A DNA stretch of 25,158 nt from a virus. Under the pieces are notes generated by a model that had not been told where the DNA came from, ran no database searches, and saw only the letters and a program-made list of their open reading frames with translations. The position numbers and the translations under genes were made by a program. Positions 1,964 to 18,893 of this stretch are shown piece after piece. Numbering within the stretch: the first letter of the stretch is position 1; the number at the start of each line of letters is the position of its first letter. The stretch covers positions 1 to 25,158 of IMG/VR virus record IMGVR_UViG_3300025141_000681; one strand, given 5' to 3'.

Positions 1964-2015
1964 TTTTATATTATAATTAGGAAAGTAGAAAAGAAAGTTT
2001 TTGTATTTTGGCGAG

Positions 2016-2429
2016 ATGGAAGAAAAGAAATTAGGGGAGGAAGCACGAAAGAAGCGACCTCAACTTGGCAAGATAGATGAGAATTATAATAAGACTCCTA
2101 AATCACTATTGCCAAAAAATAAAGAACTAAGGCAGATAGCAAAGATGACTAGGAAGTCATTAGCATATGCTTTAGAAGGACAGCCAGTAAAGATTAAGAT
2201 GGCATTAGATATTTTATTTGAGGAAGACCCTAGAGCCTACATAGATGCTATAGCAAAATTAATGAACTATGCTATCCCAAAATTATCATCAACAGAAATC
2301 AAGAAAGACACCGATACTAAGATTGAGATTAAATTAAATGAAGGGGCTACCCTTGAAGATATTAAAAATCAAATTAGAGGTCTTGATGATACGGAAGATA
2401 TTGACTATACAGAATTAGATGACCAGTAA
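2016..2429 (+). CDS. terS: terminase small subunit-like protein (137 aa)
   Basis: Probable DNA-recognition subunit of the packaging motor. The assignment rests on position directly before terL, size, and character: a basic N-terminal half (Lys/Arg-rich around residues 5-45), a helical middle (EDPRAYIDAIAKLMNYAIPK) and an acidic C-terminus (DDTEDIDYTELDDQ) that could contact the large subunit. The middle helix resembles small terminases of Bacteroidota phages. I chose ATG 2016; a TTG at 2001 is possible but less likely. It overlaps terL by 11 nt, implying translational coupling. Confidence 0.65.
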   Translation: MEEKKLGEEARKKRPQLGKIDENYNKTPKSLLPKNKELRQIAKMTRKSLAYALEGQPVKIKMALDILFEEDPRAYIDAIAKLMNYAIPKLSSTEIKKDTDTKIEIKLNEGATLEDIKNQIRGLDDTEDIDYTELDDQ

Positions 2430-3864
2430 AAAACTATTAAAGTTTGCTCTTGAAAAGAAACTATGTGAAATGAGTTTCTATGAGTTCTTTAAAAAGGCTT
2501 GGCATGTAGTAGAGCCATCAGTACCTCTGTCTACAAATTGGCATCATAAATATATATGCGATATACTACAGGTAGAGTGTGAGAGAATAATAAAACAAGA
2601 ACCAAAAACAAAAGACATAATTATTAACGTACCATTTAGAAGTACAAAGTCTTTGATAGTTACTGTTATGTTTCCAGTATGGGCTTGGATAAAATCTCCA
2701 AAACTAAGATTCATTACCTCATCATATTCTGCAACACTATCTATTGAACTATCAACAAAATCAAGAGATATAATATTTAGTGAATGGTTTAAAAGAAGAT
2801 GGGAAGATGTTTTCTTTATTAAGAAAGACCAAAACTTAAAAGAGAGATATGAGAATAATCATATTGGTATGCGAAGAGCAACCTCTGTTGGAGGTACTGT
2901 AACAGGGCAGGGTGGGGACTTCCTAATAGTGGATGACCCCCTATCACCACAAATGGCAAACTCAGCAACCGAAAGAGATAATGCTAATGAGTGGTACAGG
3001 ACAACATTCTACTCAAGATTAAATCAAGCAGACATTGGGGTGAGAATAATTATTATGCAAAGAATACATGAAGAAGATTTAAGTGGATTCTTATTAGATA
3101 GAGAAACAAGATTAAATTATAAACACATATGTATACCAGCAACTAATGAAAATGGAAACATAAAACCAAAATCATTAGAGAAGTTCTACGATAAAGATAG
3201 TGGTTTATTTTGGGAGGATAGGTTTAGTAAAAAAATATTAGATGATTACAAAAGTGCTTTAGGGACTTATGGGTATGCTGGACAACTACAACAAACACCC
3301 ACACCACTAGATAGTGGGATGATACATAGAGATTGGTTTAGGGTAGATAGACACAAAAGAGAGGAAGCGACAGTAAACTTTATTATAGACCCAGCGTATA
3401 CTGCAAATCAAAAGAACGACCCCTCAGCATTATTAGCATATACCTATGTAGACAATAAGTGGCAGATAGTAGATTGTACAAATGTGAGAAAAGAATTTCC
3501 AGAACTTGTTAGGTTTATACCTGAGTGGGTGCAGAAAAATGGGTACACAAATAAGAGTAGGATATATGTAGAGCCAAAAGCATCTGGTAAGTCTATAGTA
3601 CAAACATTAGTTAGGGAAACAGGGTTGAATATAAAAGAAGATAAACCACCAACAAAAGATAAGGTAGCAAGAGTAAGTGATATTAGTGCTTCACTTGAAA
3701 GTGGCAGGGTTAGTTTATTGCATGGTAGATGGAACGAAGAGTTTTTAGACCAACTATCTAAATTCCCATCAGCCAAACATGATGACATGGTAGACTGTTT
3801 AGTGATGGCTGTTAACAAAGAAATTTGGGGGAACGGTAAGGGGAAGATAGTTTATTTTAATTAA
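2419..3864 (+). CDS. terL: terminase large subunit (481 aa)
   Basis: ATPase-nuclease that packages DNA into procapsids at the portal. Visible parts: an ATPase domain (about residues 35-240) with Walker A-like VPFRSTKS at 71-78, Walker B FLIVDD at 168-173, and a likely coupling region before residue 215; then an RNase H-like nuclease with Asp324 (FIIDPAYT), Glu385 (YVEPKASG) and the HDDMVD acidic cluster at 454-459. The nucleotide loop lacks the usual glycine before Lys-Ser, although Arg74, Lys77 and Ser78 are kept. Length is normal for the family. It starts inside the end of the small subunit gene. Bases 3490-3507 match the gap upstream of terS exactly. Confidence 0.95.
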   Translation: MTSKKLLKFALEKKLCEMSFYEFFKKAWHVVEPSVPLSTNWHHKYICDILQVECERIIKQEPKTKDIIINVPFRSTKSLIVTVMFPVWAWIKSPKLRFITSSYSATLSIELSTKSRDIIFSEWFKRRWEDVFFIKKDQNLKERYENNHIGMRRATSVGGTVTGQGGDFLIVDDPLSPQMANSATERDNANEWYRTTFYSRLNQADIGVRIIIMQRIHEEDLSGFLLDRETRLNYKHICIPATNENGNIKPKSLEKFYDKDSGLFWEDRFSKKILDDYKSALGTYGYAGQLQQTPTPLDSGMIHRDWFRVDRHKREEATVNFIIDPAYTANQKNDPSALLAYTYVDNKWQIVDCTNVRKEFPELVRFIPEWVQKNGYTNKSRIYVEPKASGKSIVQTLVRETGLNIKEDKPPTKDKVARVSDISASLESGRVSLLHGRWNEEFLDQLSKFPSAKHDDMVDCLVMAVNKEIWGNGKGKIVYFN

Positions 3865-3911
3865 TTTTTCAGTTTGTTAGAAAATTATGAAAATATTTAG
3901 AATAAGGAGTG

Positions 3912-3919
3912 TAATTTTG
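3912..3919 (+). promoter_or_regulatory. isolated -7 element
   Basis: TAATTTTG fits the Bacteroidota -7 pattern TAnnTTTG and lies 28 nt before the ATG at 3948, in the 83-nt gap after terL. No TTTG or TTG is found at the expected 17-23-bp distance upstream, so promoter activity is doubtful. Confidence 0.25.
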
Positions 3920-3947
3920 TGTCGTTTTGAATAATTATCATAAAACT

Positions 3948-4388
3948 ATGAAAGATAGTGAAGTAATTTACTTAAATGACGACCACGAAAAAATTGTGGA
4001 CAAGCACATTAAGGGAGTTAAGAAATTAATGTATTATGCTACTGAACAAGTAGGTACTGGTAAATATCAAGATTTCTTGAGTATTATGAAATCTATATAT
4101 CTGTACTCTAATAATTTTTACAACACTATGTTAAAAAAAAGAGAGTATGATGAGGGGGAGATGGCAGAATTTATATTTTTAATTCCAAATATGTCTTTTT
4201 ATACTTCTATTGGTTTCTTAACAGCCCTTAAAGATGGTGATAATGATTTAATGTTGAGAGATAAACTAGAAAGGATTGGGTTTAACTGTGAGAACACTAC
4301 AGCAGAATTAGCAGACGTATTATTTGAAGAAAATGAAAAAAAGAAGTTTTTTAATACCTCAGTTGACGAAAAAATAAATCAAAACTAA
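3948..4388 (+). CDS. hypothetical protein upstream of tail chaperones (146 aa)
   Basis: Not recognised. It appears to be a helical soluble protein with a His/Asp-containing N-terminus and an acidic, Lys-rich C-terminus (FEENEKKKFF). I chose ATG 3948; the frame is also open to a TTG at 3927, which would start only 7 nt after the -7-like element. The next gene starts 4 nt after its stop, so it belongs to the tail-chaperone operon. A role in tail assembly is possible from context only. Confidence 0.75.
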   Translation: MKDSEVIYLNDDHEKIVDKHIKGVKKLMYYATEQVGTGKYQDFLSIMKSIYLYSNNFYNTMLKKREYDEGEMAEFIFLIPNMSFYTSIGFLTALKDGDNDLMLRDKLERIGFNCENTTAELADVLFEENEKKKFFNTSVDEKINQN

Positions 4389-4392
4389 TTAT

Positions 4393-5073
4393 ATGATACA
4401 AATTAAAATTCAAGACAAAAACTATGACATCCCAACCAAGTGGAAAGACATGAAGTTGAATTATTGGTGTGGGCTATATGCTATAATCAATAAGTATAAC
4501 AAAAGAGATGAAGAAGGGAATGTCATAGAAGCAGAACACTCAGAGGTAGAACTATTAAAAATGAATAGAGATATTTTTATGTACTTAACTGAGTTGAAGG
4601 CAGAAGAAATGAATCAACTTGATTTAGAGAGTGTGAATAGTGCTGTCAATGCTTTTGCTGGGGCTTTAGAAGAATATAAGCCACAAGGGATAGAAAAATT
4701 TGAGTTAGATGGTGAGGTGTATTATTTCCCAAAAGAATTTTTAAAAAGAAATACATTTGGAGATTACATAGAGTCTACACACTTAGATAGTACAATAAAG
4801 ATAATGAAGCATGGAAGATTTGATGTGTTACCAGAACAAATGGCAATACTATGTAGAGCAATAGGAGAGGAGTATGATGATGATGTTATCCCCCCTAAAA
4901 CAGAAAAATTCAAGGAATTGACAATGGACATAGTTTGGGAGTTCAGTTTTTTTTTGACTATGCAAAGCGTAAAATTAACAAGGACTTTCCAAATGTTTTT
5001 GGGGAAAACAGAAGAGGAAGTGGAACAGGCAAAAACAGAGTTTCTACAGTTGGACTCTACAACAAGTTCATAA
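4393..5073 (+). CDS. tail assembly chaperone, first frame (gpG-like, 226 aa)
   Basis: Probable chaperone that coats the tape measure during tail-tube assembly, analogous to lambda gpG. Support: size, acidic helical character, location among tail genes, and above all the gene layout: an overlapping -1 frame runs from 4899 to 5273. The N-terminus (KIQDKNYDIPTKWKDMKL) resembles Bacteroidota phage chaperone-like proteins. Reading past the T9 run gives the short form; slipping gives a longer fusion of about 293 residues. It is oddly far from the tape measure gene (12550), with five genes between. Sequence similarity to gpG itself is not claimed. Confidence 0.6.
   Translation: MIQIKIQDKNYDIPTKWKDMKLNYWCGLYAIINKYNKRDEEGNVIEAEHSEVELLKMNRDIFMYLTELKAEEMNQLDLESVNSAVNAFAGALEEYKPQGIEKFELDGEVYYFPKEFLKRNTFGDYIESTHLDSTIKIMKHGRFDVLPEQMAILCRAIGEEYDDDVIPPKTEKFKELTMDIVWEFSFFLTMQSVKLTRTFQMFLGKTEEEVEQAKTEFLQLDSTTSS
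4947..4953 (+). promoter_or_regulatory. candidate -1 ribosomal slippery site
   Basis: A run of nine T (4947-4955) contains the canonical heptamer T TTT TTT in phase with the first frame (codons 186-187). After a -1 slip decoding continues as TTT GAC into the second frame, which is open to 5273. A second, weaker candidate is G GGG AAA at 5001-5007, where only the P-site codon re-pairs fully. No obvious stimulatory stem was identified. Confidence 0.55.
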
Positions 5074-5273
5074 AACCATATGGCTGGTTAAACAGTTTGT
5101 ATATGGTGGCAGAAAAAAAGATATTTAGAGTGGATGGACAAAACGATATAGAAAGTGTTAAAAGAACAGACTTGTATAAGGTTTTAACTTATTTAAGTTG
5201 GAATACTGCTAAGAATGATTATGAAATTGCTGTTCAGGAAAAAATACATAATAAAAACAATATAACATTATAA
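4953..5273 (+). CDS. tail assembly chaperone, frameshifted extension (gpT-like)
   Basis: This frame is open from 4899 to TAA 5271-5273 and has no ATG suited to independent translation; a TTG at 4935 is the only early start. Its C-terminal part (KPYGWLNSLYMVAEKKIFRV then YKVLTYLSW) resembles the second-frame chaperone of other Bacteroidota siphophages as I remember it. It is most simply the -1 extension of the upstream chaperone, giving a gpG-gpT type fusion. The next gene starts 2 nt after the stop. Confidence 0.6.
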   Translation, partial: FDYAKRKINKDFPNVFGENRRGSGTGKNRVSTVGLYNKFIKPYGWLNSLYMVAEKKIFRVDGQNDIESVKRTDLYKVLTYLSWNTAKNDYEIAVQEKIHNKNNITL

Positions 5274-5275
5274 CA

Positions 5276-6418
5276 ATGGCAATAACAAGATTAACAGATA
5301 TAGTATCAGTATTTGAAAGCAAGTGGACTTATGGAGATGTTAAGTTTGGTTATGAAGGAGAGGTAAACCAAGACCATGACACACAATACCCATTAATGCT
5401 TATTCAACCTCCTGAATCTACAATACCTACAATATATGATGGTAGGGAGGAGTATACATTTGAGATAAATTTTTATAATTTATATTCACAAGCGGCACAA
5501 TCGGTAGTAGCACTACAGCAAAGATGGGACAACTTACAAGACTTGGCTAATGAGTGGCTAGATTTTGTTTTAAAGAACTATCAAGATGCAACAGTTGAGG
5601 CTTACTTAAATGATGAAAGTATTGAGATTGAAAGAGTGAAGGAAGTAGCAAATGATAAATTAGTTCAACTAAAACTAACATTCACAATGAGTGGGTTTAC
5701 AAAATGCTTTAGACCAGTATCTAATTACCCATCAGACTTCTCTGATTTGGTAGTTTGGTTAAAAGCAGATAGTGGGGCTACATTTGATATACCATCTAAA
5801 AGAGTTAGTGCTTGGGCTGACCAATCTGGAAATAGTAATAGCGTGGCACAGGCTACAACTGCAAATCAACCATTAAGGAATGGTTATGATGGGGCTAACG
5901 ATAAAACATACCTTTCTTTTGATGGGACTAATGATGGTCTTACTTCAAATTCAAACTGTCCTATCTCTAGCAATAGTTATACTGTATTTGTTGTTGCAAA
6001 ACAAAATGCAGCAGATGCTAGTACGTTACCAGTATTTAGTTACGTTAGTGGTGCTAATCTGATTTCAGTTGGGTTTACTGAGAATAAATTTCATTCTCTT
6101 GTTGCTGATGGAACTACGACTCTTCAGTCAAGTAGTAGAGATTCTAGTAATTATGGATTAATAGCAACAGGGCTGGATGGAAGTACAGGAAGATTAAAAA
6201 CTTCTATCAATGATAGTTCAGATGCAGTAGATTCAAGTGGTTCTTGGGATGATACTACAACTTTTAATGGGGCTGCTTTTGCTATAGGACGTAAGAAAGG
6301 TGTGGAGGTGTTTACAAATACAAATGTTGAAGAGGTTATTGTTTACAATAGAGAGTTAACTGATAGTGAAAAAACAGATATAAAAAATTATTTAAATTAT
6401 AAATATAAAATATATTAA
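5276..6418 (+). CDS. tail protein with C-terminal LamG/concanavalin-like domain (380 aa)
   Basis: Two parts are visible. Residues 1 to about 148 resemble a small tail-completion or terminator-type protein of Bacteroidota phages (mixed strands, ending near TMSGFTKCFRP). Residues about 150-380 form a LamG/concanavalin-like jelly roll: it opens with LVVWLKADSG, continues with VSAWADQSGNSN and LSFDGTNDG, and ends with the hallmark strand and helix VEEVIVYNRELTDSEK and NYLNYKYKIY. Such domains bind glycans, so the protein probably displays a lectin on the virion. The surrounding genes are all tail genes. Which step of tail assembly the N-terminal part serves is inferred. Confidence 0.75.
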   Translation: MAITRLTDIVSVFESKWTYGDVKFGYEGEVNQDHDTQYPLMLIQPPESTIPTIYDGREEYTFEINFYNLYSQAAQSVVALQQRWDNLQDLANEWLDFVLKNYQDATVEAYLNDESIEIERVKEVANDKLVQLKLTFTMSGFTKCFRPVSNYPSDFSDLVVWLKADSGATFDIPSKRVSAWADQSGNSNSVAQATTANQPLRNGYDGANDKTYLSFDGTNDGLTSNSNCPISSNSYTVFVVAKQNAADASTLPVFSYVSGANLISVGFTENKFHSLVADGTTTLQSSSRDSSNYGLIATGLDGSTGRLKTSINDSSDAVDSSGSWDDTTTFNGAAFAIGRKKGVEVFTNTNVEEVIVYNRELTDSEKTDIKNYLNYKYKIY

Positions 6419-6421
6419 GAT

Positions 6422-8191
6422 ATGGCAGGAGTAAGAGGACTTTTAAGTTGGGGGTTTCAACCATTAGATTTTTCTGGTTCTAATCTGGCAGGTGCGTTCC
6501 CAACATATATGGGAAATAATCTAATAGGCGTACACCAACCACTAAGATTTCAAATACAATGGACTGGATTGCATGAGGACGAAAATGCCTCTGCTAGTAA
6601 TTGGGATGGTAATGATGGTGATTTAATAAAAGTAGTTTTTCAGGTGATGAGTGCTGTAGATGAGGGGAGTGGTGTTACCAATTGGAAAACTATAGCAACG
6701 ATAAAAAAGACAAAAGATATTGCAAATAGAAACTATGCGACAGGGGCTTCTAATGTTGTACAAAGGTTTACAATAGATGTAAGTCAAATACTTGCAGATG
6801 AACTCTCATATAGTTTATGCCCAATAGACAAAGGAACTTGGGAGAGTAATTACTATGGTGGTATGAATGGAGGGGCTGTAATGCAAGACAACGTGCTTGG
6901 AAATAGTGGTGCTGCTGGTAGTCCTGTAAGTTGGTTTAATATTTCAAAAAATGGCACTTATAGAAATATAAAAGTAAGAGCAACTTTTGAAGTTATAAAT
7001 GGAGAGGGTCATGTCGTTCCTGCTGCTACTGGGGCAATGGACTCAAATTTCATTACTGTTATAAATTCAGTATCACAATTTGAGCAGGATGAAACTTACC
7101 TAGCAGATTATACAATGTTCAATACTGCTTCTACTAAAAAATTTCTTACTAGAAATCCATATGAAGGAGAAGATATTAAAAAGCCAGTTGGAATAGATGA
7201 AGAGGCAGAGTTTTTACAGTTTTATATATATTCTGCACACTATACTGATATTAGTGGTGCTGGTGATAGTAGTGTTGGGTCTATAGGATTCAAGGTAGAA
7301 ACATTTGACGCAAGTGGTGCAGAAAACACATTTTACATGAGAGATTTTGAAGCAAATGCTGAAACGGATGCTAGTACAGGATTTGGTACTTTGAAAATTA
7401 AAGCGGGTCAATATCAAATGTTTATTCAAAATGTATCACCTTACTATATAAAAAATTTAGCAACAGGTTCTGCTACTGCTGCACCTGCAACAGCATATGC
7501 ACCCCCAGATGGAAGTGATTCTAACTTCCCATATTGGAAATCCTATAGTGGTGATACGATAACAGATGACACTATTTACTATAGAGTTAGTCTTGTAAAG
7601 ATTGGATTAGAGAGTCCTTACACAATAAAAAAATCAAGTGAGTACAAGTATTATGTTATTGATAGAGAAGATGAGAATATTCCTTATGGATTTGTTCGTT
7701 TTCATTGGCTAAACTCTATAGGAGGTATTGATAGTTATACTGCCAAAAGAGATGTTTCTGAAGGGTTGACCATAAGTAGAGATGTGGTAGAAAGAAAAAG
7801 TGTAGATAGAACATGGTATCAAACAGATTATGGAAATAATGCCCTTCGTATATCAGACACAATGAGAGGAGGGGATTTATATAAAGGGGGTAGAGAGGTT
7901 TCTAATGTAAACGCAGAAAGAAATTTAAGTGTTTATACAGAGCCTTTAAATACTATGACTGCGAAGTGGCTAGAAGAAATTATGTTATCTCCTAACGTAT
8001 GGGTGGAGATGGACACACCAGCAACAGCAACGGGGAAGGAACGAGAACCATACTTACGACCATCAACTAAAGGATATATACCTGTAATCATAACCAATAG
8101 TGATGTTGAAACTGTTAATCAAGAGCAAGGGCTTGTTAAGTTTAATATTGATTATACTCTAGCACATAAAGTAATAACACAAAGAACCTAA
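6422..8191 (+). CDS. large tail/baseplate protein (589 aa)
   Basis: Structural protein of the tail tip or baseplate, judged from position, size and a conserved block near residues 405-465: YKYYVIDRE, then FVRFHWLNSIGGIDSYT and a VERKS turn. This 'aromatic...N-x-GG-x-D-x-Y/F-T' pattern occurs in tail proteins of many Bacteroidota phages. The N-terminal half is beta-rich and Ser/Gly/Thr-rich. No enzymatic motif is seen. It is separated by 3 and 5 nt from its neighbours, so it is in one operon with them. It starts ATGGCAGG, the Met-Ala start seen in most late genes here. Confidence 0.65.
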   Translation: MAGVRGLLSWGFQPLDFSGSNLAGAFPTYMGNNLIGVHQPLRFQIQWTGLHEDENASASNWDGNDGDLIKVVFQVMSAVDEGSGVTNWKTIATIKKTKDIANRNYATGASNVVQRFTIDVSQILADELSYSLCPIDKGTWESNYYGGMNGGAVMQDNVLGNSGAAGSPVSWFNISKNGTYRNIKVRATFEVINGEGHVVPAATGAMDSNFITVINSVSQFEQDETYLADYTMFNTASTKKFLTRNPYEGEDIKKPVGIDEEAEFLQFYIYSAHYTDISGAGDSSVGSIGFKVETFDASGAENTFYMRDFEANAETDASTGFGTLKIKAGQYQMFIQNVSPYYIKNLATGSATAAPATAYAPPDGSDSNFPYWKSYSGDTITDDTIYYRVSLVKIGLESPYTIKKSSEYKYYVIDREDENIPYGFVRFHWLNSIGGIDSYTAKRDVSEGLTISRDVVERKSVDRTWYQTDYGNNALRISDTMRGGDLYKGGREVSNVNAERNLSVYTEPLNTMTAKWLEEIMLSPNVWVEMDTPATATGKEREPYLRPSTKGYIPVIITNSDVETVNQEQGLVKFNIDYTLAHKVITQRT

Positions 8192-8196
8192 AATAT

Positions 8197-11100
8197 ATGG
8201 CAGTAAGAATAGAAATATTAGACTATAATTATAGTGTCAATCCCGTTGGACAGAATATGATTGGGAATTATTCCTTTACTGATACATCTTGTTGGTCGTT
8301 GAATGGTACTTGGCTTAATGGGGGAATATCAGGGGGGATGGCTCATTCTGTTCCTACTGCAACTGTTGGTTATGGTAATATCCAAAGCACATGTTTAAGT
8401 ACCTCTTTTGAAATAGGAGTATCCTACAGGGTGGAATATAGGATAACTGGAAAAACTCAAGGGAATCTATATCTTCTATTTAGAAAGGATGATGGTAGTT
8501 GTGCTGACCAACTTTTGCCCAGTACCGACGGTACACATGTATATGATTTTAAACAGGCAAATTGTAATCTTACAAATTTTGGGTTTTTTGTAAATGGTAA
8601 TTTTGATGGGAGTATTAAGTATGTTAAATGTCGTAGGTTGAGTGGAATTGATTGGGATAAAAGTATGGTAGGGGAGTTAGAGATAACAGACCATTCTGAT
8701 TTTCCTCTTGCTTTAACATTGCAAATTGGGAATATACAAGACATCACTTCAACAAGTGGAGATTATAGTAAAACTTTTAAAGTCCCTGCAACAAAAAACA
8801 ATAATAAATTATTAAAACACATATACAATCCTAAAGTAGTTCTTCAAAATAATGCAGCAAAATACAAACCTTGTAGAATAGTTATAGATGGGATGCAAAG
8901 CCTAACTGGACTTATTAAAGTTGTAGGAATGGAAGGGAGGGGAGAAAACGCATCTCTTTATAACTGTGTTTTTTATGGTAATAATATGAGTTGGGCAAAA
9001 GGGTTGGAGGAGGCGTATTTGAACACACTAGAGTTACCTAATTCAAAAGGTCTTAGTTATAATAAGACAGGTGTAATAGACACTTGGCAACATGAAGATT
9101 CAGATTCAGCATCTCCAATAGTTTACCCTGTAGTATCTTATGGGGATTTTAACCCAGATGGAAAAGACTTTACTATTCAATTATTAGACCATAAAGAAGA
9201 TGCTTACAACACAGGTGGAACACAAGCGTTAGGGTATTTTGGCTGGTTTGAGAATGGTAGTGAGTATCCAACGCCTAAGCCTACATCAGATTGGCGACCT
9301 GCAGTATTTGTTAAAACCACATTAGAACAAATATTTAAGATGGCTGGTAATTATACAATATCATCTCAATTTATGGACACAGATATGTTTAAGAAATTGG
9401 TTTGGTTACTTCCAAACTTTCAATATAATAATCCTGATGATAGGTATAATGATTTAGGAATAGAGGCTGAATGGCAGAATTTAAGTGTTCTTACTGTACC
9501 TGCTACCACTTATATTACTACACCACTATCAACTGATGGGGTTGTTGAAGATTTTAAAGACATAAGCACTACTAATGGGGATTATGCTTATACTGGGGCT
9601 GGCAGGAACGTGTTAGATATAGGCGCAACAAAGAATTTGAATGTAACACTAGACAATGGAAGTTATTTTGATATGGGGAATGACTATATAACTGTAGGAG
9701 AATATGGCAATTATGACATCATATTAGAGGGGCTACAAGTAAGAATAGCAAGAGCATATCATGATTCTACTAGTACTGAAAACCTCTATCAAGTTGGAAC
9801 TACTGTAAATGTTGAAGTGAGGACAGTAGGACAAACTTCTTGGAATATTATAGCCCAATCAGAAAAGGCATTAGAGCCAACTCAACAAGGGTATCCTTCA
9901 GGGACTACTTCTACTAATCGTTCCATTCCTTTGTATACTCAACACTTTAGAGATATAGAGGCTATTGATTTAAAAGCAATATTTTTAAATAAAGGAGACA
10001 GAATAAGATTCACTACAGGGCTACGTGTAAATTCTTCTAGTCCTGGTAGTCCTAATTTCAAGATATATTGTTGGTGGAGGGCGAGGTACAGAGCATCTTT
10101 GCGGATTTCTATTGACCCATCTGGTGTTTATTGGGGACAAACTTATGATTTAGATAAAGTTATAGACCCAAAATACAAACAAATTGATTTTATTAAAGGG
10201 GTTGCTCATGCTTTTAATTTAGTAATGACTACTAATTCAGAAGACAAAGTAGTATATATAGAACCCTTCAATGATTTTTACCAAACTCCATCAAATGCAG
10301 TAGATTGGACATCTAAATTAGACAGAAGTAGAGAGATTTCTGATAAATGGATGCCAAGTGAGTTAAAAAGAAATTTTGTTTTTAAATATAAAACAGATGA
10401 TAATGATGAAAAAGTAAAATATAGAAAGAGGCTTTTTGATGATATAGAAGATGAGTACCCTTATAGAGAAACATTATCAGATGAGTTTGATAAAGGAGAT
10501 TCTATATTTGAAAATCCGTTTTTCGCAGGAACATTTAATGGTCAAGATAGGGACACTAATGATGATAGAATTGAGGTTTATTCTCCTTGTTTATGGCAAG
10601 ACAAAGGAGATGGTTTGCAAACCTCTGTAAATGATTGGGCTAGACCAGATAAAGGATATGATTTTAAGCCAAGACTTTTATATTGGAATAAACTAGAAGA
10701 CCTTGACCAAGCATCTACTTTTGTTAATTATGCAGCCAAAGTACAAGTATGGGAATCATCAGACCTAAGGTATCTTAATGCTAATAAAAACTACCCATCT
10801 GGAGATGTGCCAAATATATATCCACAAGCAACATCAGTAGACAAGAATAATGCTCTTAAACCTGTATTAACTTATGGTAATGTTTGGGTGAGAAATTATG
10901 ATGCAGTGAATGACACTTATTCATCCAATGAAATCGGTAAAGGGCTTTATGAAACTTATTATAGAGGTCTGTTTGAGATGCTAAAGCAGAGTCCTAGATT
11001 AAGAACTGTATATGTAGATTTAAAAGTAAAAGATATTGTAAACTTAAACTTTGCAAAATTAATATATATAGATGGTTGCTATTGGAGAATAGGTAGAGTT

Positions 11101-11271
11101 GTAGATTACAAGCCTAATGGTAACACTCCTACAAAGGTAGAGTTAGTAGAATGGATTGAAACAGGGGTTCATGCTTTACATCCCCCATCCTATGGTATTT
11201 CTGGAGGGGTTAGTAGATGGGGAACGAGTCAGGCTGAAGAGTTGGGTTGGTGGGGTAACTGGGACGCATAA
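8197..11271 (+). CDS. tail tip/baseplate hub-like protein with inserted jelly roll (1024 aa)
   Basis: Large tail protein. Residues about 155-210 (MVGELEITDHSDFPLALT and SGDYSKTFKVPATKNNNKLL) match a conserved start region of Bacteroidota phage tail proteins. The C-terminal region (VDLKVKDIVNLNFAKLIYI then YWRIGRVVDYKP) is the expected end. Between the first 10 residues and residue 155 lies an extra Cys/Ser/Gly-rich beta segment (about 19-147) with the look of a carbohydrate-binding-module-like jelly roll (NYSFTDTSCWSLNG near its start), apparently inserted. Host-surface contact is a reasonable inference. Stop is 10 nt before the next ATG. Confidence 0.65.
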   Translation: MAVRIEILDYNYSVNPVGQNMIGNYSFTDTSCWSLNGTWLNGGISGGMAHSVPTATVGYGNIQSTCLSTSFEIGVSYRVEYRITGKTQGNLYLLFRKDDGSCADQLLPSTDGTHVYDFKQANCNLTNFGFFVNGNFDGSIKYVKCRRLSGIDWDKSMVGELEITDHSDFPLALTLQIGNIQDITSTSGDYSKTFKVPATKNNNKLLKHIYNPKVVLQNNAAKYKPCRIVIDGMQSLTGLIKVVGMEGRGENASLYNCVFYGNNMSWAKGLEEAYLNTLELPNSKGLSYNKTGVIDTWQHEDSDSASPIVYPVVSYGDFNPDGKDFTIQLLDHKEDAYNTGGTQALGYFGWFENGSEYPTPKPTSDWRPAVFVKTTLEQIFKMAGNYTISSQFMDTDMFKKLVWLLPNFQYNNPDDRYNDLGIEAEWQNLSVLTVPATTYITTPLSTDGVVEDFKDISTTNGDYAYTGAGRNVLDIGATKNLNVTLDNGSYFDMGNDYITVGEYGNYDIILEGLQVRIARAYHDSTSTENLYQVGTTVNVEVRTVGQTSWNIIAQSEKALEPTQQGYPSGTTSTNRSIPLYTQHFRDIEAIDLKAIFLNKGDRIRFTTGLRVNSSSPGSPNFKIYCWWRARYRASLRISIDPSGVYWGQTYDLDKVIDPKYKQIDFIKGVAHAFNLVMTTNSEDKVVYIEPFNDFYQTPSNAVDWTSKLDRSREISDKWMPSELKRNFVFKYKTDDNDEKVKYRKRLFDDIEDEYPYRETLSDEFDKGDSIFENPFFAGTFNGQDRDTNDDRIEVYSPCLWQDKGDGLQTSVNDWARPDKGYDFKPRLLYWNKLEDLDQASTFVNYAAKVQVWESSDLRYLNANKNYPSGDVPNIYPQATSVDKNNALKPVLTYGNVWVRNYDAVNDTYSSNEIGKGLYETYYRGLFEMLKQSPRLRTVYVDLKVKDIVNLNFAKLIYIDGCYWRIGRVVDYKPNGNTPTKVELVEWIETGVHALHPPSYGISGGVSRWGTSQAEELGWWGNWDA

Positions 11272-11281
11272 ATTTAAAAAT

Positions 11282-12034
11282 ATGGCAAATAGACAACAAA
11301 TATCAGGAAGAGGGGTTGCTCAGTCAAGTGGCTTGGAAGTTTTTAGAAATATAACTACATATAGTGGGGAGTATTTGAATTGGGGTAATGCAGATTCCTA
11401 TGGGACTTCTTTAGGGTCAGATACTGATTACGAGGTGGATAACGCTGCCACAGACCCACATGTTGACGCATTGGTTAACTCAAGAGCAACAAAGGTTGGG
11501 CAATGGATGAAGTATAATACAGCAACAGGGAGTAATTATAAAGCAGCAACACCACCCACAAGTGGTAGTGGGCGGTTTACTTTTAATGGTGAACATGCAG
11601 GAGGAGGAGTTGCTTCATATAGTGGTATATATCAAATGATGTCATTGGAAGAAGGGGAAACATATAAGGTAGAATTATTAACACCTATAGATGCAAATAT
11701 AGGCAGTTTGTATATAAACACTTACACTCCTACTCCAAACCCAGACGCATCAGATGTTAGCACGTTTAAAATAACTTCAACAACAAACATATCATACCCA
11801 ATTACAAATTCAACAATAGGATTATTGACATCAGAATTTACTGCTGCAAATCAAAATGACATTTTAGTTGTTTACTTTACAACACTTGAAACATCTTCAA
11901 CTGATATTAAAGTGAAAAATATATCTGTAAAACTAAAAGAAGATTTCTTAATTCCTGTTTATTCAGAAGATATAATTGGCAATGCCCAGACAGTATTAAG
12001 AAGAAATGTTCAAACTCCAACATTCAATACATAA
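11282..12034 (+). CDS. tail-associated jelly-roll-like protein (250 aa)
   Basis: Not a named family. I chose ATG 11282 (MANRQQ); the frame is open further upstream to 11156, but that would overlap the large tail gene. The first 100 residues are Gly/Ser/Thr/Asn-rich. Residues about 110-235 read as a beta-sandwich (YKVELLTPIDANIGSLYINT, DILVVYFTTLE and IKVKNISVKL), similar in feel to carbohydrate-binding modules. It follows the hub-like gene and overlaps the next gene by 3 nt (TAATG). A surface or fibre role is inferred. Confidence 0.65.
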   Translation: MANRQQISGRGVAQSSGLEVFRNITTYSGEYLNWGNADSYGTSLGSDTDYEVDNAATDPHVDALVNSRATKVGQWMKYNTATGSNYKAATPPTSGSGRFTFNGEHAGGGVASYSGIYQMMSLEEGETYKVELLTPIDANIGSLYINTYTPTPNPDASDVSTFKITSTTNISYPITNSTIGLLTSEFTAANQNDILVVYFTTLETSSTDIKVKNISVKLKEDFLIPVYSEDIIGNAQTVLRRNVQTPTFNT

Positions 12035-12537
12035 TGAAAATTTTAAAACATACAAATAGAGCATTAAGAGAGGTGGGTGATATGCTGCGTGTGAAACTGC
12101 AGGATGAACTTAAAGCACAACAGCATAATGCTACAGGTAGATTAAGTAGGGGGCTTAAATATAATGTTATAAAAAGAGGTCTTAGTATTTTAAATGTAAC
12201 CTCATCTGTTGCTTATTGGAAAGCAGTTAACAATCCTAAGTTCGCTAAAGTTCCAAATTTTAGAGAGATATTTAAATGGCTACAAGCGAAAGGACTTCCA
12301 TTAAGTTCTGCTACACATATTCTTAGAAAGTTAAAATCTCATTACGGTAAACCTTATGTGTATTGGACAGAAGGGAATAGTTTAAGAAGAACAAACTTTG
12401 CAGGATATGTAGCAAATAAATTTAAAGGCAAGGTTGCAAATAAGTTAGCACCATCAATAGGTGTAGATGTGGCTAATATGATAGCAGACCAAATTAAAAA
12501 GAATAATCCAAAAACAAATGTTACTAAAGCATTTTAA
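12034..12537 (+). CDS. HK97 gp10-like/tail completion-type protein (167 aa)
   Basis: A basic protein whose N-terminus (helix with EVGDMLRVKLQDELKAQ, then TGRLSRGLKYNVI) has the layout of the HK97 gp10 or minor tail/neck family: a helix, then a 'TGxLxxSl' style strand. The C-terminal half is Lys-rich (ANKFKGKVANKLAP). Context supports tail assembly: it overlaps the jelly-roll gene and precedes the tape measure gene by 12 nt. Confidence in the family is moderate. Confidence 0.55.
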   Translation: MKILKHTNRALREVGDMLRVKLQDELKAQQHNATGRLSRGLKYNVIKRGLSILNVTSSVAYWKAVNNPKFAKVPNFREIFKWLQAKGLPLSSATHILRKLKSHYGKPYVYWTEGNSLRRTNFAGYVANKFKGKVANKLAPSIGVDVANMIADQIKKNNPKTNVTKAF

Positions 12538-12549
12538 TATATAATAGAT

Positions 12550-15138
12550 ATGGCAACAAATACAGAAAAGATAGTAGTACAGGTAGTCGTACAAGGACAA
12601 AAAGATTTAAAAAAATTAGAAGGTAGAACTAAAACTACAACTGCTAGTTTTGGGAAAATGGCTGTAGGAATTGCTGGGGCGGTTGCTGCCTTTAGAGCAG
12701 TTTCAAGTGCTGTGGGTTCAGCAATAAACACATTCAAGGGGTTTGAGTTTCAAATGGCTAAAGTTAGAGCAACTACTGGGGCTAGTAATAAGGATTTCAA
12801 GAAACTAAATGCTTCAGCACAACAATTAGGTAGAACTACATTCTTTACTGCTTCACAGGTAGGGGCATTACAGATGAATTTTGCTAAGTTAGGGTTTACT
12901 ACTTCTGAGATATTAGATGCTCAAGAAGCAACATTAAGGTTGGCGACTGCAACAGGTAGTGATTTAGCAAGAGCAGCAGTAGTAGCAGGTGCTGCAGTAA
13001 GAGGTTTTAATTTAGACGCATCAGAAACTGAAAGAGTGGTTGATGTAATGGCTGTATCGTTTACAAGTTCTGCTATGGATATTGAGAAGTGGCAAACTTC
13101 TATGACGAAGGTAGCCCCTATTGCCGCAGGGGCTGGTGTATCTATTGAGAGTACAGCAGCAGTTATGGGTAAATTAACTGACGCAGGTATTGAAGCGTCT
13201 ATTGCAGGAACATCCATGAGAAATATATTTCTGAAAATGCAAGATTCATCTTCAGATTTAGCACAACACTTAGGATTTACAGTTAAAAGTAGTAAAGATT
13301 TAGAAAGAGCATTAATTCAATTAAATAAAGAGGGGCTTTCAAACGAAGAGATAATGGGTCTTGTTGATTTAAGGCAAGTAGCAGCATTTGCGACAATGGT
13401 TAATGGAACTGATGCTATTTTAGATATGACAGATGCTTTAGAAGATGCTAATGGTGCTGCTCAAGAGATGGCTGATATTATGGCTGATACTTTAGAGGGC
13501 GATTTAATTACTGCTAAATCTGCGTGGGAGGGGTTTCAGATAGCAATTATGGAGGGTTCTGGTAAAATATCTATATGGTTAAGAGAGGCTGTTCAAACTT
13601 GGACTTTCATATTAAATGGATTTTCAGATAGTTTAAAGGATAGCGACCAAATTGCAGCAGATATGTTTACTAATGCTACGAAAACTGCAAAAGAAGAAAC
13701 AAAAAAGTTAATTAAAGATAGAGGAGAGTTTGGTACTACTTATTCTAGGCAATTATATGAAGAACAGAAACTTTTAGAGGGCAGTTTAAGAAGAAAAGAG
13801 TTTGATGTAGAAAAATCAGAAGAAAAACTTGCTGAACTTATAGGTGATGGTAGTGGGGCAAGGATGCAATGGTGGGCACAAGAAATTGATGAAGAACAAA
13901 AAAGACTTGAAGAGAAAAAGAAGATAGTTGAAGCAACAAAAAAAACTATAGAAGATTTAACAGAAGAGGTTGAGGTTCAAAAGAAAAAAGAAGCAGATGC
14001 CTTAGATATTGCAGCCTTAAAAAAATTCCAAAAAGACCAACAAGAAATAAGGAATAAAGAAAAATCAGATAAAGAGGCTCAAAAGAAGAGGGATAAGGAG
14101 GCAAAAGAGGCTAGAAAAAAAGACCAAGAAGATTTTAAGCAATCGCAAACAGACTTAACAAACGCTTTACAAGAAGAATTAAATGCAGAAAAAGAAAATT
14201 TAGCGAATAAATTAATAACTCAAGAAGAGTATGATTTAAGAGTCTTTGAAGCAGAACAAGCACATCTTGAGAATATGAAGAATCTTAATATTGCTTATGG
14301 TGAAGATGTTGCTGCTATTAATGGTCAGATACTTGACAACGAACTGCAGATGATTGCTGATAAGGCTGCCGCAGAATTAAAGGCTAATGAAGATAAGGAA
14401 AAACAAAGAGATGAAGATATTCAAAGCATGGAGGATTTGGCTAACCAACTGATAAAAGTTGGAGAGCAAGAAGAGGGGCTTAACGAATTGAAAAAAATAG
14501 GAATACAATTATCACAAGCAGCAGCGATAGTAAAGGGGATTGAAACACTACAAGATAAATTAGCAGAACTTCAAGCATATAAAACAGCAACAGCAAGAAC
14601 AGCAGAGGCAGGTGCTACTATAGTAGCAGCAGGGGCTGATGCAACAGGGGCTGTTACAAAAGCAGCAAATAATCCATTTCCATTTAATCTTATAGCAATA
14701 GCAGCAACTATAGCCGCCTTAATAGCAGTTGTTGCGAATGTTAAGGCATTGAAAAAATCTTTTGGTAAAGGTGGAGTGATTGATGAGTTTGCAAATGGAG
14801 GTGTGGTGAATGGTAAATCACACGCACAAGGAGGAGAGAAATTTGCAGTAGGAGGAAGAGTAGTAGAATTAGAAGGAGGTGAGGCTGTTATAAATAAAAG
14901 AAGTACAGCAATGTTTAGAAATCAATTATCAGCAATGAATTCTGCAGGAGGAGGTGTTAAATTTGCAGATGGTGGATTACTTAATATGCCCTCATTCTCT
15001 CAACAGCAATTTAATGCTCTAGGTCAAAATCAAATGATGGGTGCTATGGGGGGTGCTAGTAAAGTAGTGGTAGTTGAAGCGGATATTACAGACAGTCAAA
15101 ATACAGTAAGCGTGATAGAATCTTCTGCAACAATTTAA
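12550..15138 (+). CDS. tail tape measure protein (862 aa)
   Basis: Sets tail length and is ejected with the DNA. Residues about 60-240 are the TP901-type tape measure core (FEFQMAKVRATTGAS, TFFTASQVGALQMNFAKLGF and GTSMRNIFLKMQ). Residues about 385-640 are long charged coiled coil rich in Lys and Glu. A hydrophobic segment at about 713-732 could cross a membrane. The C-terminus has the Gly-rich block common in these proteins (FANGGVVNGKSHAQGG, then ELEGGEAVINK). At about 0.15 nm per residue, 862 residues predict a tail near 130 nm. No peptidase motif was seen. No sheath gene is present, so the tail is of the non-contractile type. Confidence 0.93.
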   Translation: MATNTEKIVVQVVVQGQKDLKKLEGRTKTTTASFGKMAVGIAGAVAAFRAVSSAVGSAINTFKGFEFQMAKVRATTGASNKDFKKLNASAQQLGRTTFFTASQVGALQMNFAKLGFTTSEILDAQEATLRLATATGSDLARAAVVAGAAVRGFNLDASETERVVDVMAVSFTSSAMDIEKWQTSMTKVAPIAAGAGVSIESTAAVMGKLTDAGIEASIAGTSMRNIFLKMQDSSSDLAQHLGFTVKSSKDLERALIQLNKEGLSNEEIMGLVDLRQVAAFATMVNGTDAILDMTDALEDANGAAQEMADIMADTLEGDLITAKSAWEGFQIAIMEGSGKISIWLREAVQTWTFILNGFSDSLKDSDQIAADMFTNATKTAKEETKKLIKDRGEFGTTYSRQLYEEQKLLEGSLRRKEFDVEKSEEKLAELIGDGSGARMQWWAQEIDEEQKRLEEKKKIVEATKKTIEDLTEEVEVQKKKEADALDIAALKKFQKDQQEIRNKEKSDKEAQKKRDKEAKEARKKDQEDFKQSQTDLTNALQEELNAEKENLANKLITQEEYDLRVFEAEQAHLENMKNLNIAYGEDVAAINGQILDNELQMIADKAAAELKANEDKEKQRDEDIQSMEDLANQLIKVGEQEEGLNELKKIGIQLSQAAAIVKGIETLQDKLAELQAYKTATARTAEAGATIVAAGADATGAVTKAANNPFPFNLIAIAATIAALIAVVANVKALKKSFGKGGVIDEFANGGVVNGKSHAQGGEKFAVGGRVVELEGGEAVINKRSTAMFRNQLSAMNSAGGGVKFADGGLLNMPSFSQQQFNALGQNQMMGAMGGASKVVVVEADITDSQNTVSVIESSATI

Positions 15139-15157
15139 CAATCAGAGAAATAAACAA

Positions 15158-15352
15158 ATGTTTGTTGATAAAAAAACTAAGTTAGAAAGATTAGGTGTCT
15201 GTAAAAGTTGTAGTTTTTACCGAAACTTTATGTTACTAAAAAGACCAAAGATTACAAAGGGGGCAAGATGTGCTGATTGTAAGTGTTTCCTAGATGCAAA
15301 GACATCATTAACTAAAGAGTTCTTTGGTAAGTGTCCTCAAAATAAATGGTAA
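15158..15352 (+). CDS. small cysteine-rich, zinc-ribbon-like protein (64 aa)
   Basis: Six cysteines: C15-x2-C18, then C38-x2-C41-x-C43, then C59 in the ending CPQNKW. The pattern suggests one bound zinc, and the 'CP..KW' ending resembles a small protein found near tape measure genes of other Bacteroidota phages as I remember it. It starts 19 nt after the tape measure gene and is probably co-transcribed. Function unknown. Confidence 0.75.
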   Translation: MFVDKKTKLERLGVCKSCSFYRNFMLLKRPKITKGARCADCKCFLDAKTSLTKEFFGKCPQNKW

Positions 15353-15362
15353 AACTTTACAT

Positions 15363-15665
15363 ATGGATTTAAAACAAATCGCTGATAATTACAGTATAGA
15401 AAAAAGAAAAATGATGACAAACTCTGTTATCAAAAATAAAAACCACACAAAAAATTTCACTTCTTATCATGCTGAATCATTATATACAATGTTTGCAGAA
15501 TGGCATCTATTATTTCCTGCACAAAAGCAAGACATTAAATGTACTTCATGTAGAAAAGCAGTAGTTAAGTTTTGGGAAACTATGGTAGATGAGTGGATTA
15601 TAGTTGCACAAACATCAACAAAAAAACCTAATGCCCCTAAAAAGAAAAAAACAAAAGCAAAATAA
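15363..15665 (+). CDS. small CxxC protein (100 aa)
   Basis: ATG 15363 is preferred over the open TTG at 15324, which would overlap the upstream gene. It contains C60-x2-C63 in DIKCTSCRKAVVKFW after an aromatic helix (FAEWHLLFPAQ), and ends in a strongly basic tail (KKPNAPKKKKTKAK). A nucleic-acid or protein contact is suggested by the basic tail only. It lies 10 nt after the zinc-ribbon gene and overlaps the next gene by 35 nt. Confidence 0.65.
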   Translation: MDLKQIADNYSIEKRKMMTNSVIKNKNHTKNFTSYHAESLYTMFAEWHLLFPAQKQDIKCTSCRKAVVKFWETMVDEWIIVAQTSTKKPNAPKKKKTKAK

Positions 15666-15969
15666 GATTGATGTAGTTAAAGACTTCATTGAAACTGCTG
15701 GAGAGGGATTAGAGAAAAGATTTGGACTACATCCCACTTGCAAAGATATTGTAAGGCATTTTGTAGAAAGGGGTGTAATAGAACCTAAAAGACTTCGTAA
15801 TTTCATGATTATTGTTGACTTTGATAGAATGTTAATTACTAATAAAGGAAGCAGAACTCACACTTGGATGGATTTATCTATAAAATATGATATAAGCGAA
15901 AGTCAAGCACAAAACATAGTTTATAAAGAAAGAAAAAAGTCCGAATCATCTAGTAATATAACGTATTAA
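15631..15969 (+). CDS. helix-turn-helix-like small protein (112 aa)
   Basis: ATG 15631 chosen; a TTG at 15604 is also open. The N-terminus is basic (PLKRKKQKQNK). Residues about 78-104 (TWMDLSIKYDISESQAQNIV) read as a helix-turn-helix: helix, 'DIS' turn, recognition helix. That suggests DNA binding, perhaps as a regulator, in the style of Mor or sigma-like small phage regulators. It overlaps the CxxC gene by 35 nt and ends 57 nt before the protease gene, directly upstream of a -7-like element, so control of the head operon is an attractive but unproven idea. Confidence 0.6.
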   Translation: MPLKRKKQKQNKIDVVKDFIETAGEGLEKRFGLHPTCKDIVRHFVERGVIEPKRLRNFMIIVDFDRMLITNKGSRTHTWMDLSIKYDISESQAQNIVYKERKKSESSSNITY

Positions 15970-16012
15970 AAGTTTTGTAAGAAAATTGGGTAGATTTATT
16001 TTCACTTCCTTC

Positions 16013-16020
16013 TATTTTTG
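16013..16020 (+). promoter_or_regulatory. possible promoter -7 element before the head operon
   Basis: TATTTTTG fits TAnnTTTG. The nearest TTG upstream (15986-15988) is 24 bp away, longer than usual. The ATG of the protease gene is only 6 nt downstream, so a transcript from here would be nearly leaderless. No other start of the protease reading frame fits its family better. Confidence 0.4.
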
Positions 16021-16025
16021 CACTC

Positions 16026-17060
16026 ATGACAGAAAAATGGTATAATATTCAAAATAAAGCAGGTGAAACTGCTGATGTGTATATCTTTGATGAGATAGGT
16101 ATGTATGGTGTAACTGCACAAGAGTTCATTAACGATATTAAAGATTTAAAAGATTTGCCAATCAATTTAAGGATTAACAGTTTAGGAGGAGATGTTTTTG
16201 ATGGTATGGCAATGTATAATGTAATCAAAAGGAGAGAGGCTAAGACTACAGTTTATATTGAGGGTATTGCAGCGAGTATTGCTACTATTGTTGCTCTTGG
16301 TGCAGATGAGGTTATTATGGCTGAAAATTCTTTGTTTATGATTCATAACGCTTGGGGAGGTACAATGGGGGAAGCCAAAGACATGAGAAAAACTGCAGAC
16401 ACTCTTGATAAAATCTCAGGTGAATTAACAGACATTTATAGGAAAAAGACAGGATTGTCTTATGATGCTCTTACTGAGATGATGGATGAGGAAACTTGGT
16501 TAAATGCTGAAGAAGCGTATAACTATGGTTTTGTTGACACTATTTCTGATTCTATTAAAGTGGCTGCAAAGTATGATGTTTCTAAATTTAAGAACATCAC
16601 ACAAGAAGAAATACAGAATAAACTAAATATTAATATAAATAACAAAAAAATGACTAATGAGTTAAAAGAATGGTTTAACAACAAGGTTGATGAAATTGTT
16701 GCTACTGTAAAAGGTGATGTAAAGGTTTCTGAAGATGTTGTTGAAGAAACGACTATTAATGTTAACTTAGGGGATAATGATGATATAATGAATAAAATAT
16801 CTGAATTTGAAACTAATAACATTGAGTTATCAAACAAAATCACTTCATTAGAAGAAGAATTGGTTTCTGCAAAAGGAACTAACGAAACTTTAACTGGAGA
16901 AGTAGAGGCGTTACACGCTAAAATCAACAAAGCAGATGCTAAGGGTACTGAAATAAAAACTGATAGCGACCCTGTAGTAGTTGAAAACAAAAAAGAAGAT
17001 GCTAATGCAGGTTTTTATGCAGCAATGGCAGAAAGAGTAAGAAATAAATTTAATAACTAA
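16026..17060 (+). CDS. ClpP-like head maturation protease with C-terminal scaffold-like region (344 aa)
   Basis: Residues 1-185 are a ClpP/S49-like protease of the phage prohead type: NSLGGDVFDG (51-60) for the oxyanion region, nucleophile Ser84 in GIAASIAT, His107 in MIHNAWGG, and probably Asp171 in VDTIS. Residues about 209-344 are acidic and coiled-coil (SNKITSLEEELVSAK), as in scaffold proteins, ending in a basic C-terminal helix (AAMAERVRNKFNN). The enzyme would cleave scaffold and capsid delta-like parts during head maturation. An internal ATG at 16650 may make the scaffold part alone. The capsid gene follows by 14 nt. Confidence 0.9.
   Translation: MTEKWYNIQNKAGETADVYIFDEIGMYGVTAQEFINDIKDLKDLPINLRINSLGGDVFDGMAMYNVIKRREAKTTVYIEGIAASIATIVALGADEVIMAENSLFMIHNAWGGTMGEAKDMRKTADTLDKISGELTDIYRKKTGLSYDALTEMMDEETWLNAEEAYNYGFVDTISDSIKVAAKYDVSKFKNITQEEIQNKLNININNKKMTNELKEWFNNKVDEIVATVKGDVKVSEDVVEETTINVNLGDNDDIMNKISEFETNNIELSNKITSLEEELVSAKGTNETLTGEVEALHAKINKADAKGTEIKTDSDPVVVENKKEDANAGFYAAMAERVRNKFNN
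16650..17060 (+). CDS. nested scaffold protein from internal start (136 aa)
   Basis: Met209 of the protease gene is encoded by an ATG preceded by AACAAAAAA, the A-rich context typical of starts in this window. Starting there gives MTNELKEWFNNKVDEI, an acidic coiled-coil region and a basic C-terminal helix, which is what a procapsid scaffold looks like. In lambda the C protease and Nu3 scaffold share such an in-frame arrangement. The internal start is inferred from sequence context only. Confidence 0.45.
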   Translation: MTNELKEWFNNKVDEIVATVKGDVKVSEDVVEETTINVNLGDNDDIMNKISEFETNNIELSNKITSLEEELVSAKGTNETLTGEVEALHAKINKADAKGTEIKTDSDPVVVENKKEDANAGFYAAMAERVRNKFNN

Positions 17061-17074
17061 AAAAATAAAAAAAA

Positions 17075-18082
17075 ATGGCAAATGTAGCAAATAAAGGAAC
17101 TTTCGCAACTTACTCAGGGGCGAACCTTAACGAAATATTTTATGAGCCAGTATTTAGAAGTGATGATATTATGCGTAACTATAGAGTTATTCCTAATGTA
17201 AAGCACAAAATGAATGTGTTTACTTCTGCTGCTCTAACAAAAATCGTAGCAAAATATGATGGTTGTTCAGCAACAAGTGGTTCAACTCAATTTAATATTG
17301 ATGAGAAAACAATTACTGCTGGTAGAATGAGAGTTGCTCTTGAGCAATGTACTGATGAGTTCTTCGGAACTTACATTGAAGAAATGTACCGAAATGGTGT
17401 TGATGTAATGAACTTAGAAGGAACTCAATTAGCAGATGCGATTGTAAATCGTGCTGTAAAAGGTATCGCACAAGATGTTGTAAGATTAGCATGGGGTGGA
17501 GATAGTGCAACTGCTAACTATGACCAAATGTCTGGATGGATGAAATTAATGGGAGATGATGCAACTGTATTGGCTGCTAGAACTGAGTATAGTGCAGTAG
17601 CACCTACAACACCTACAGCAGCAGAAGCACTTGGACTATTAAGAACAATGTATGATGATGCACCTGCAGCGTTACAACAAGTACCTGCATCAGATAAGAA
17701 GATATATGTATCTCCTAAGACTTACAATAAATACTTACAAAACTTAGAGGGAACTTCTGCTGATTTAGCAATTACCAACCAACAAGATGGTTTATTAGTT
17801 GTTAAGTTTAGAGGTGTTGAATTAGTTCCTATGTATGAGTGGGATACTATTTTAGCAGATACTGACCCAGCAATGTTCTTGAGAGGTGGTGTTAATGGAA
17901 CGGAAGGTGCTTGTTACTGTGCAGTAGACAACTTAATCATTGGTTCTGATGTAACTGACCCTGAAGGTTCTTTTAAAGTATTTTATGATGACTTAGAAGA
18001 ACAAATGTTCTTCAGAGGATACTTCAAGTTAGGAGTACAATTCTTGTACCCTTCACTTGTTCAATGGGGAATTTTCTACTAA
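17075..18082 (+). CDS. major capsid protein (335 aa)
   Basis: Main shell protein. The call rests on length, position directly after the protease/scaffold gene, a strong terminator right behind it, and overall composition typical of HK97-fold shell proteins of Bacteroidota phages: a helical N-terminal part (LNEIFYEPVFRSDDIM), a central segment with LADAIVNRAVKGIAQDVVRLAWGG, and a C-terminal beta region (FFRGYFKLGVQFLYPSLVQWG). No long N-terminal delta domain is seen, in agreement with a separate scaffold. Confidence 0.85.
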   Translation: MANVANKGTFATYSGANLNEIFYEPVFRSDDIMRNYRVIPNVKHKMNVFTSAALTKIVAKYDGCSATSGSTQFNIDEKTITAGRMRVALEQCTDEFFGTYIEEMYRNGVDVMNLEGTQLADAIVNRAVKGIAQDVVRLAWGGDSATANYDQMSGWMKLMGDDATVLAARTEYSAVAPTTPTAAEALGLLRTMYDDAPAALQQVPASDKKIYVSPKTYNKYLQNLEGTSADLAITNQQDGLLVVKFRGVELVPMYEWDTILADTDPAMFLRGGVNGTEGACYCAVDNLIIGSDVTDPEGSFKVFYDDLEEQMFFRGYFKLGVQFLYPSLVQWGIFY

Positions 18083-18096
18083 TAATATGTAATAAT

Positions 18097-18130
18097 AGAG
18101 GGAAGGTGTTAAAACCTTCTCTCTTATTTA
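18097..18130 (+). terminator. terminator after the capsid gene
   Basis: An 11-bp stem (18097-18107 with 18114-18124, one G-U pair) and 6-nt loop, followed by TATTTACTTTTT. It sits 14 nt after the capsid stop. It probably attenuates read-through and so raises capsid transcript over the genes downstream. Confidence 0.75.
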
Positions 18131-18160
18131 CTTTTTAATAACTTATAAAATAATAATAAT

Positions 18161-18757: not shown

Positions 18758-18763
18758 TAAATA

Positions 18764-18832
18764 AATATATACTAATAGGTTGGTATTTTATCGTAAAATG
18801 TTTTAAACATAACCCTATTAATATATTTTTTT
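18764..18832 (+). terminator. compound hairpin terminator
   Basis: Outer arms AATATAT (764-770) and ATATATT (821-827), inner arms TAATAGG (773-779) and CCTATTA (814-820) in the 18700-18800 range, then a 7-T run at 18826-18832. The loop itself holds a perfect hairpin ATTTTA-TCG-TAAAAT (18785-18799) and an overlapping palindrome ATGTTTTAAACAT (18798-18810). Placed between the tail-tube and the next gene. Confidence 0.6.
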
Positions 18833-18893
18833 AATAATGTGTGATTGCTCTAATAATATTGTAGATTTATCACACTTAAAAATTTATACAATT

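Follow-up and report, generated by a model that had tools for sequence, protein, structure and literature searches.

An overlapping gene pair in a phage tail module

How is a reading frame expressed when it overlaps a phage tail-module gene and has no ATG, and does its product serve tail assembly? Phage G-GT frameshifts are treated as ribosomal events and are searched for by their heptamers. An original prediction for the window, the whole 25,158-base virus record analysed here (IMGVR_UViG_3300025141_000681; the source phage is called marine), followed that logic: a 226-codon frame and an open −1 frame would be joined by ribosomal slippage on an in-phase T TTT TTT within a run of nine T's (T9), giving a tail chaperone pair of the lambda gpG/gpGT type. 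The overlap of the two frames around T9 and the in-phase heptamer are both present in the sequence, together with the following features:

4393..5073, + strand: frame-0 open reading frame for a gpG-like short product of 226 aa, conserved in the 80 viral contigs that the first scan yielded
4899..5273, + strand: open −1 frame, the conserved part of which starts at the T run
4937..4941, + strand: GGGAG, Shine-Dalgarno (SD)-like, 5 nt 5′ of the T run, of doubtful role and lost in a remote clade
4947..4955, + strand: T9, the candidate slippage tract, reading agT TTT TTT TTg; in both families the run is always T9, T10 or T12
4956..5273, + strand: gpT-like C-terminal part of a predicted 293-aa fusion (DYAKRK...KPYGWLNSLY...), which would be reached only by a frame change
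5276..6418, + strand: next gene, resembled by the gene after the pair in family-2 contigs and in phage P12024S
12550..15138, + strand: tail tape measure gene, five genes downstream of the pair, as the original prediction had placed it

Both T TTT TTT (4947-4953) and T TTT TTG (4950-4956) are in phase within the run. A slip at T9 would join 187 codons (to 4953) to 106 codons of the −1 frame, and the arithmetic thus bears out the anticipated 226-residue short form and fusion of about 293 residues; the −1 fusion product itself is strongly supported. The window's other in-phase slippery sites are followed by at most 23 open −1 codons, against 105-106 at T9. Since T9 is the sole in-phase slippery site in the window with more than 23 such codons and is kept in relatives, the frame overlap is not due to chance. 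The highest-identity relatives of the window's TerL are mostly from Bacteroidota phages, and the locus would encode a two-product tail-module protein of a probable Bacteroidota siphophage.

Three further observations concern the window. Its modules have an odd order (2001-20358): TerL is followed by the tail genes up to the tape measure, then by the head protease, capsid protein and portal genes. A second overlapping pair of open reading frames, each with a TTG start, occurs at 15324-15969 (15324-15665 and 15604-15969). In the frame-0 protein (4393-4780), a beta hairpin with P..W...T...Y after it apparently occurs twice, near residues 2-30 and 102-130, as an internal repeat.

Conservation of the frame change in family 1

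A first scan with the frame-0 protein as query yielded 80 viral contigs, ranging from 90% down to 40% identity, and further scans that used the −1 part or profiles as queries extended the set to about 30% identity. The arrangement recurs in more than 130 contigs of the window's family (family 1). Conservation of the heptamer and its phase had been proposed as a check: the T run stands in the same register in 80 of 80 first-scan relatives, and the −1 frame is open in all except L050 and L070 (contig end). Two arrangements held to speak against a frameshift, a relative without the slippery run and a second gene with a conserved ATG, were sought among the relatives and not found; every readable site, in several hundred related phages, keeps a run of at least nine T's. 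No relatives were found in bacterial genomes. Searches for cultured-phage sequence relatives of family 1 also found none, remote ones being reached only through fold.

According to the alignments, conservation of the frame-0 protein extends as far as FFL and is taken up there by the −1 protein. Third-position changes on the tree number 0, 0, 0 and 0 at codons 184-187; the average for the remaining invariant codons is 11.8. The codon in front of FF has T as its last base in every family-1 case, including the remote clade, where position 185 carries V, I or L (S, A or G elsewhere) and the run is T10. Frame-0 residues 189-226 are not conserved as protein. In the relatives other than the window itself, the frame-0 tail after the run (21-45 codons) was not clearly longer than under synonymous resampling, and selection on this tail was dropped as a proposal. 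Judged from these alignments, the fused product (293 aa in the window) is the protein that evolution preserves.

Two local features of family 1 were also noted. The codons GAG and TTC at window 4939-4944 are near-invariant in most of the family, against codon usage (GAG 34%, TTC 18%). In one relative, L058 (8522-9724), the −1 frame runs into the next gene to give 400 aa, as a small indel beyond the gpT-like part could produce; this merged frame is either a natural fusion or a sequencing error.

A second family that includes cultured Nonlabens phages

The two halves of the protein were modelled separately. The AlphaFold2 model of the frame-0 half had a mean pLDDT of 77, and a fold search with it matched uncharacterised phage proteins, one of them from Nonlabens phage P12024S. 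The −1 half gave a low-confidence model, with which a fold search returned no match. Based on its length and a profile match rather than an accession look-up, the P12024S protein was taken to be the product of gene 38, which encodes 175 aa, lies directly after TerL and contains an in-phase T9; the −1 part downstream is annotated as a separate gene, 39. This gene belongs to a second family of several hundred contigs (family 2) that includes the cultured Nonlabens (Persicivirga) phages P12024S and P12024L. In hhalign comparisons of families 1 and 2, the frame-0 halves matched with a probability of 97.4 (E 1.3e-11) and their FF codons coincided, and the −1 halves matched with a probability of 96.2 (E 2.1e-9). 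By these profile comparisons, homology between the families holds both before and after the slip.

Genes 38 and 39 of P12024S (L376:23136-23830, JQ823122) are annotated as two hypothetical proteins. As in the window, genes 38-39 of P12024S and P12024L follow TerL, carry an in-phase T9 and have a −1 product homologous according to hhalign; they differ from the window pair in sequence, at about 15% identity, and in the register of the run, [2-3-3-1] versus [1-3-3-2]. On comparative grounds, P12024S genes 38 and 39 are probably one frameshifted gene with a T9. In the loci examined (the window, P12024S and L447), the pair comes first in the tail module, after TerL, and is followed by a similar gene; by inspection, this next gene is tail-terminator-like.

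Flavobacterium phage 6H (L377:10352-10927) has a 191-aa gene with TTTTTTC 22 nt before its stop, and the protein matches residues 1-190 of a 293-position PHROG. It is likely, by its length, to be a fold relative and may represent another frameshifted gene.

Run length and codon register

We compared run lengths at 234 unique, automatically recognised sites from both families, whose counts are not independent, as layouts are shared by descent, and, with amino-acid constraint in both frames, were given no formal P value: 207 are T9, 26 are T10 and one is T12. Family 1 contributes 128 T9 and 10 T10, and family 2 contributes 79 T9, 16 T10 and the T12. None of the 234 has T7 or T8 at the homologous site. 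Two shorter matches (T7 and T8) that were considered as family sites turned out to be unrelated genes. A freshwater group missed by the automatic filter has T9 too.

The constant length is reached in different ways. The T run occurs in all three frame-0 registers, in the layouts [1-3-3-2], [2-3-3-2], [2-3-3-1], [3-3-3-0] and [3-3-3-1], plus the T12; the sequences include xxT TTT TTT TTR, xTT TTT TTT TTG, xTT TTT TTT Tan and TTT TTT TTT CTG. At least 11 layout changes were counted on the family-2 tree. The 5′ and 3′ T's trade off, and there are never fewer than nine in all: with one 5′ T the 3′ Leu codon is always TTR, whereas with three CTG is allowed. Among open reading frames of at least 150 codons in the fetched loci, unrelated in-phase T TTT TTT sites comprised about 92 T7, 21 T8 and at most two of T9 or longer. 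A/T runs of nine or more elsewhere were rarer than a crude expectation. Since the heptamer would be intact in shorter layouts, yet unrelated sites are nearly all T7 or T8, we read the pattern of run lengths as pointing to selection for at least nine T's.

The +1 frame stops 0-3 codons after the T run in all 234 sites, as at window 4954-4958, and products of a one-base deletion would therefore be truncated at once.

Mechanism of the frame change

Programmed transcriptional slippage on T9 probably makes the fusion. We favour it with moderate confidence over ribosomal −1 frameshifting because at least nine T's are kept across registers and no conserved ribosomal stimulator was found. In this mechanism, most mRNAs would carry U9 and yield the 226-aa short form. 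As the 9-10 bp rU:dA hybrid is weak and can realign, RNA polymerase would slip on T9 and some mRNAs would gain one U; ordinary translation of the latter would enter the −1 frame and produce the 293-aa fusion. We infer that the realignment takes place during transcription. Bacterial RNA polymerase, whose hybrid spans 9-10 bp, slips efficiently where nine A's or T's follow one another (PMC5009743), and a 9A or 9T run of a length conserved among homologues has been proposed as a mark of purposeful slippage (PMC1088944). At this locus, the homopolymer is at least nine long, its length is conserved in homologues and it is independent of codon register, as expected of programmed transcriptional slippage. 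The site shares these properties, and a frame-altered product, with slippage in Thermus dnaX, Shigella spa13/mxiE and IS elements; unlike those, it lies in a phage tail-module gene and its slippage is predicted from sequence. In the titles and abstracts on slippage with tail assembly or tape measure, a scope that mostly did not extend to subscription papers, we found no report of transcriptional slippage in a phage tail gene. Three observations weigh on the other side: each run of nine or more T's also holds an in-phase T TTT TTT, such that a ribosomal slip is always available; the length of the run is in part a consequence of residues conserved in the two frames; and polymerase slippage does not account for the GAG TTC that most of the main family conserves 5′ of the run.

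Ribosomal −1 frameshifting, the mechanism originally proposed, is possible but less likely. The P- and A-site tRNAs would slip in tandem on U UUU UUU or U UUU UUG to give the same 226-aa and about 293-aa products, perhaps helped by the long U run and by the upstream GGGAG. An in-phase heptamer of the X XXY YYZ type, as in a ribosomal −1 PRF cassette, is found at every site examined; the lambda G-GT precedent is ribosomal, as known phage G-GT frameshifts are described to be (PMC5009743); and most of the window's family carries GGGAG with the conserved GAG TTC codons 5 nt before the run. However, the heptamer needs only seven T's, yet runs of seven or eight are absent from the 234 sites, and the extra 5′ T's are of no use to it. 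Over 40 relatives, no downstream hairpin or other structure was detected after the run (mean z −0.1 to −0.6, for structures other than pseudoknots). The SD-like GGGAG occurs in most of family 1 but has been lost from the remote clade. SD motifs are lacking in the leaders of the phage's genes, an SD core being present in that of only one of 23 window genes. Bacteroidia ribosomes do not recognise SD sequences (PMC9976891). The proposal of a ribosomal slip on T TTT TTT is thus partly supported: the heptamer is conserved in phase, but with T runs of at least nine conserved across registers and no conserved RNA stimulator, this is not the better-supported mechanism.

It is very improbable that the pair represents two separate genes, in which the −1 frame would be translated from an internal start or by reinitiation. 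The second frame indeed has no ATG, as predicted, but the TTG at 4935 could be taken for a start, and many family-1 members have an NTG codon four codons 5′ of the run. This NTG is a by-product of a conserved Trp codon, TGG, and is absent in several relatives; the tree shows 19 changes at its first base and no bias towards ATG. In the −1 frame, L195 has TAG and L209 has TGA directly before the run, L206 and L207 have no ATG, GTG or TTG upstream of it, and several family-2 members have stops upstream of it. A separate second gene is therefore excluded in some relatives, which have no possible start, or have a stop, just 5′ of the run. Moreover, the −1 protein is conserved only from the run onward. 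By this comparison, the −1 part is most likely made only as a fusion.

That the frame break is a T-homopolymer sequencing error or a decayed gene has a negligible probability: homopolymers are error-prone and the merged frame of L058 is consistent with an indel, but 234 unique sequences, taken from independent contigs, share the identical break with the genomes of two cultured phages, and its conservation rules out an assembly error for the family as a whole.

A likely tail-chaperone role

Based on position and layout, the pair likely has a tail-chaperone (gpG/gpGT-like) role. In lambda, a short form and a −1-extended form are encoded in the tail module (PMC5009743). The window pair likewise comprises, by comparative sequence, overlapping open reading frames in the tail module that would be joined by a programmed frame change to give a short and an extended product. 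In other respects the two systems differ. The window pair has no detectable homology to lambda gpG/gpGT; it is found near TerL, one gene after it and five genes before the tape measure, rather than between the major tail protein and tape measure genes; and it has a T9-T12 tract for which no stimulator was found, instead of a lambda-type heptamer. Searches of PHROG, Pfam and PDB gave no significant sequence match, and the PDB matches of the frame-0 half were insignificant. The fold search returned two weak matches named tail assembly chaperone (E 0.04 and 0.7). The gpG/gpGT-like role originally suggested is thus upheld by layout and tail-module position, but not by homology to a known chaperone or by a place beside the tape measure gene. 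Because there is no significant sequence match, the fold hits are weak and the defining gene place is not occupied, we do not class the pair as a G/GT member, although it likely works like one. By analogy, the short and long forms may act in tail assembly as lambda gpG and gpGT do.

Implications

On balance, we lean slightly towards the view that, in a large and uncharacterised group of Bacteroidota phages, programmed transcriptional slippage on T9-T12, rather than ribosomal frameshifting, fixes the ratio of the tail-chaperone forms, in hosts whose ribosomes make no use of SD stimulators. If so, two decoding mechanisms, one of the ribosome and one of RNA polymerase, would serve a single assembly function, as in dnaX, and this would explain how Bacteroidota phages manage without Shine-Dalgarno stimulators. 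The finding would also correct the annotation of several hundred phage contigs, in which a single fusion protein may appear as two genes or as one truncated gene. The cultured phages P12024S and P12024L make the mechanism directly testable.
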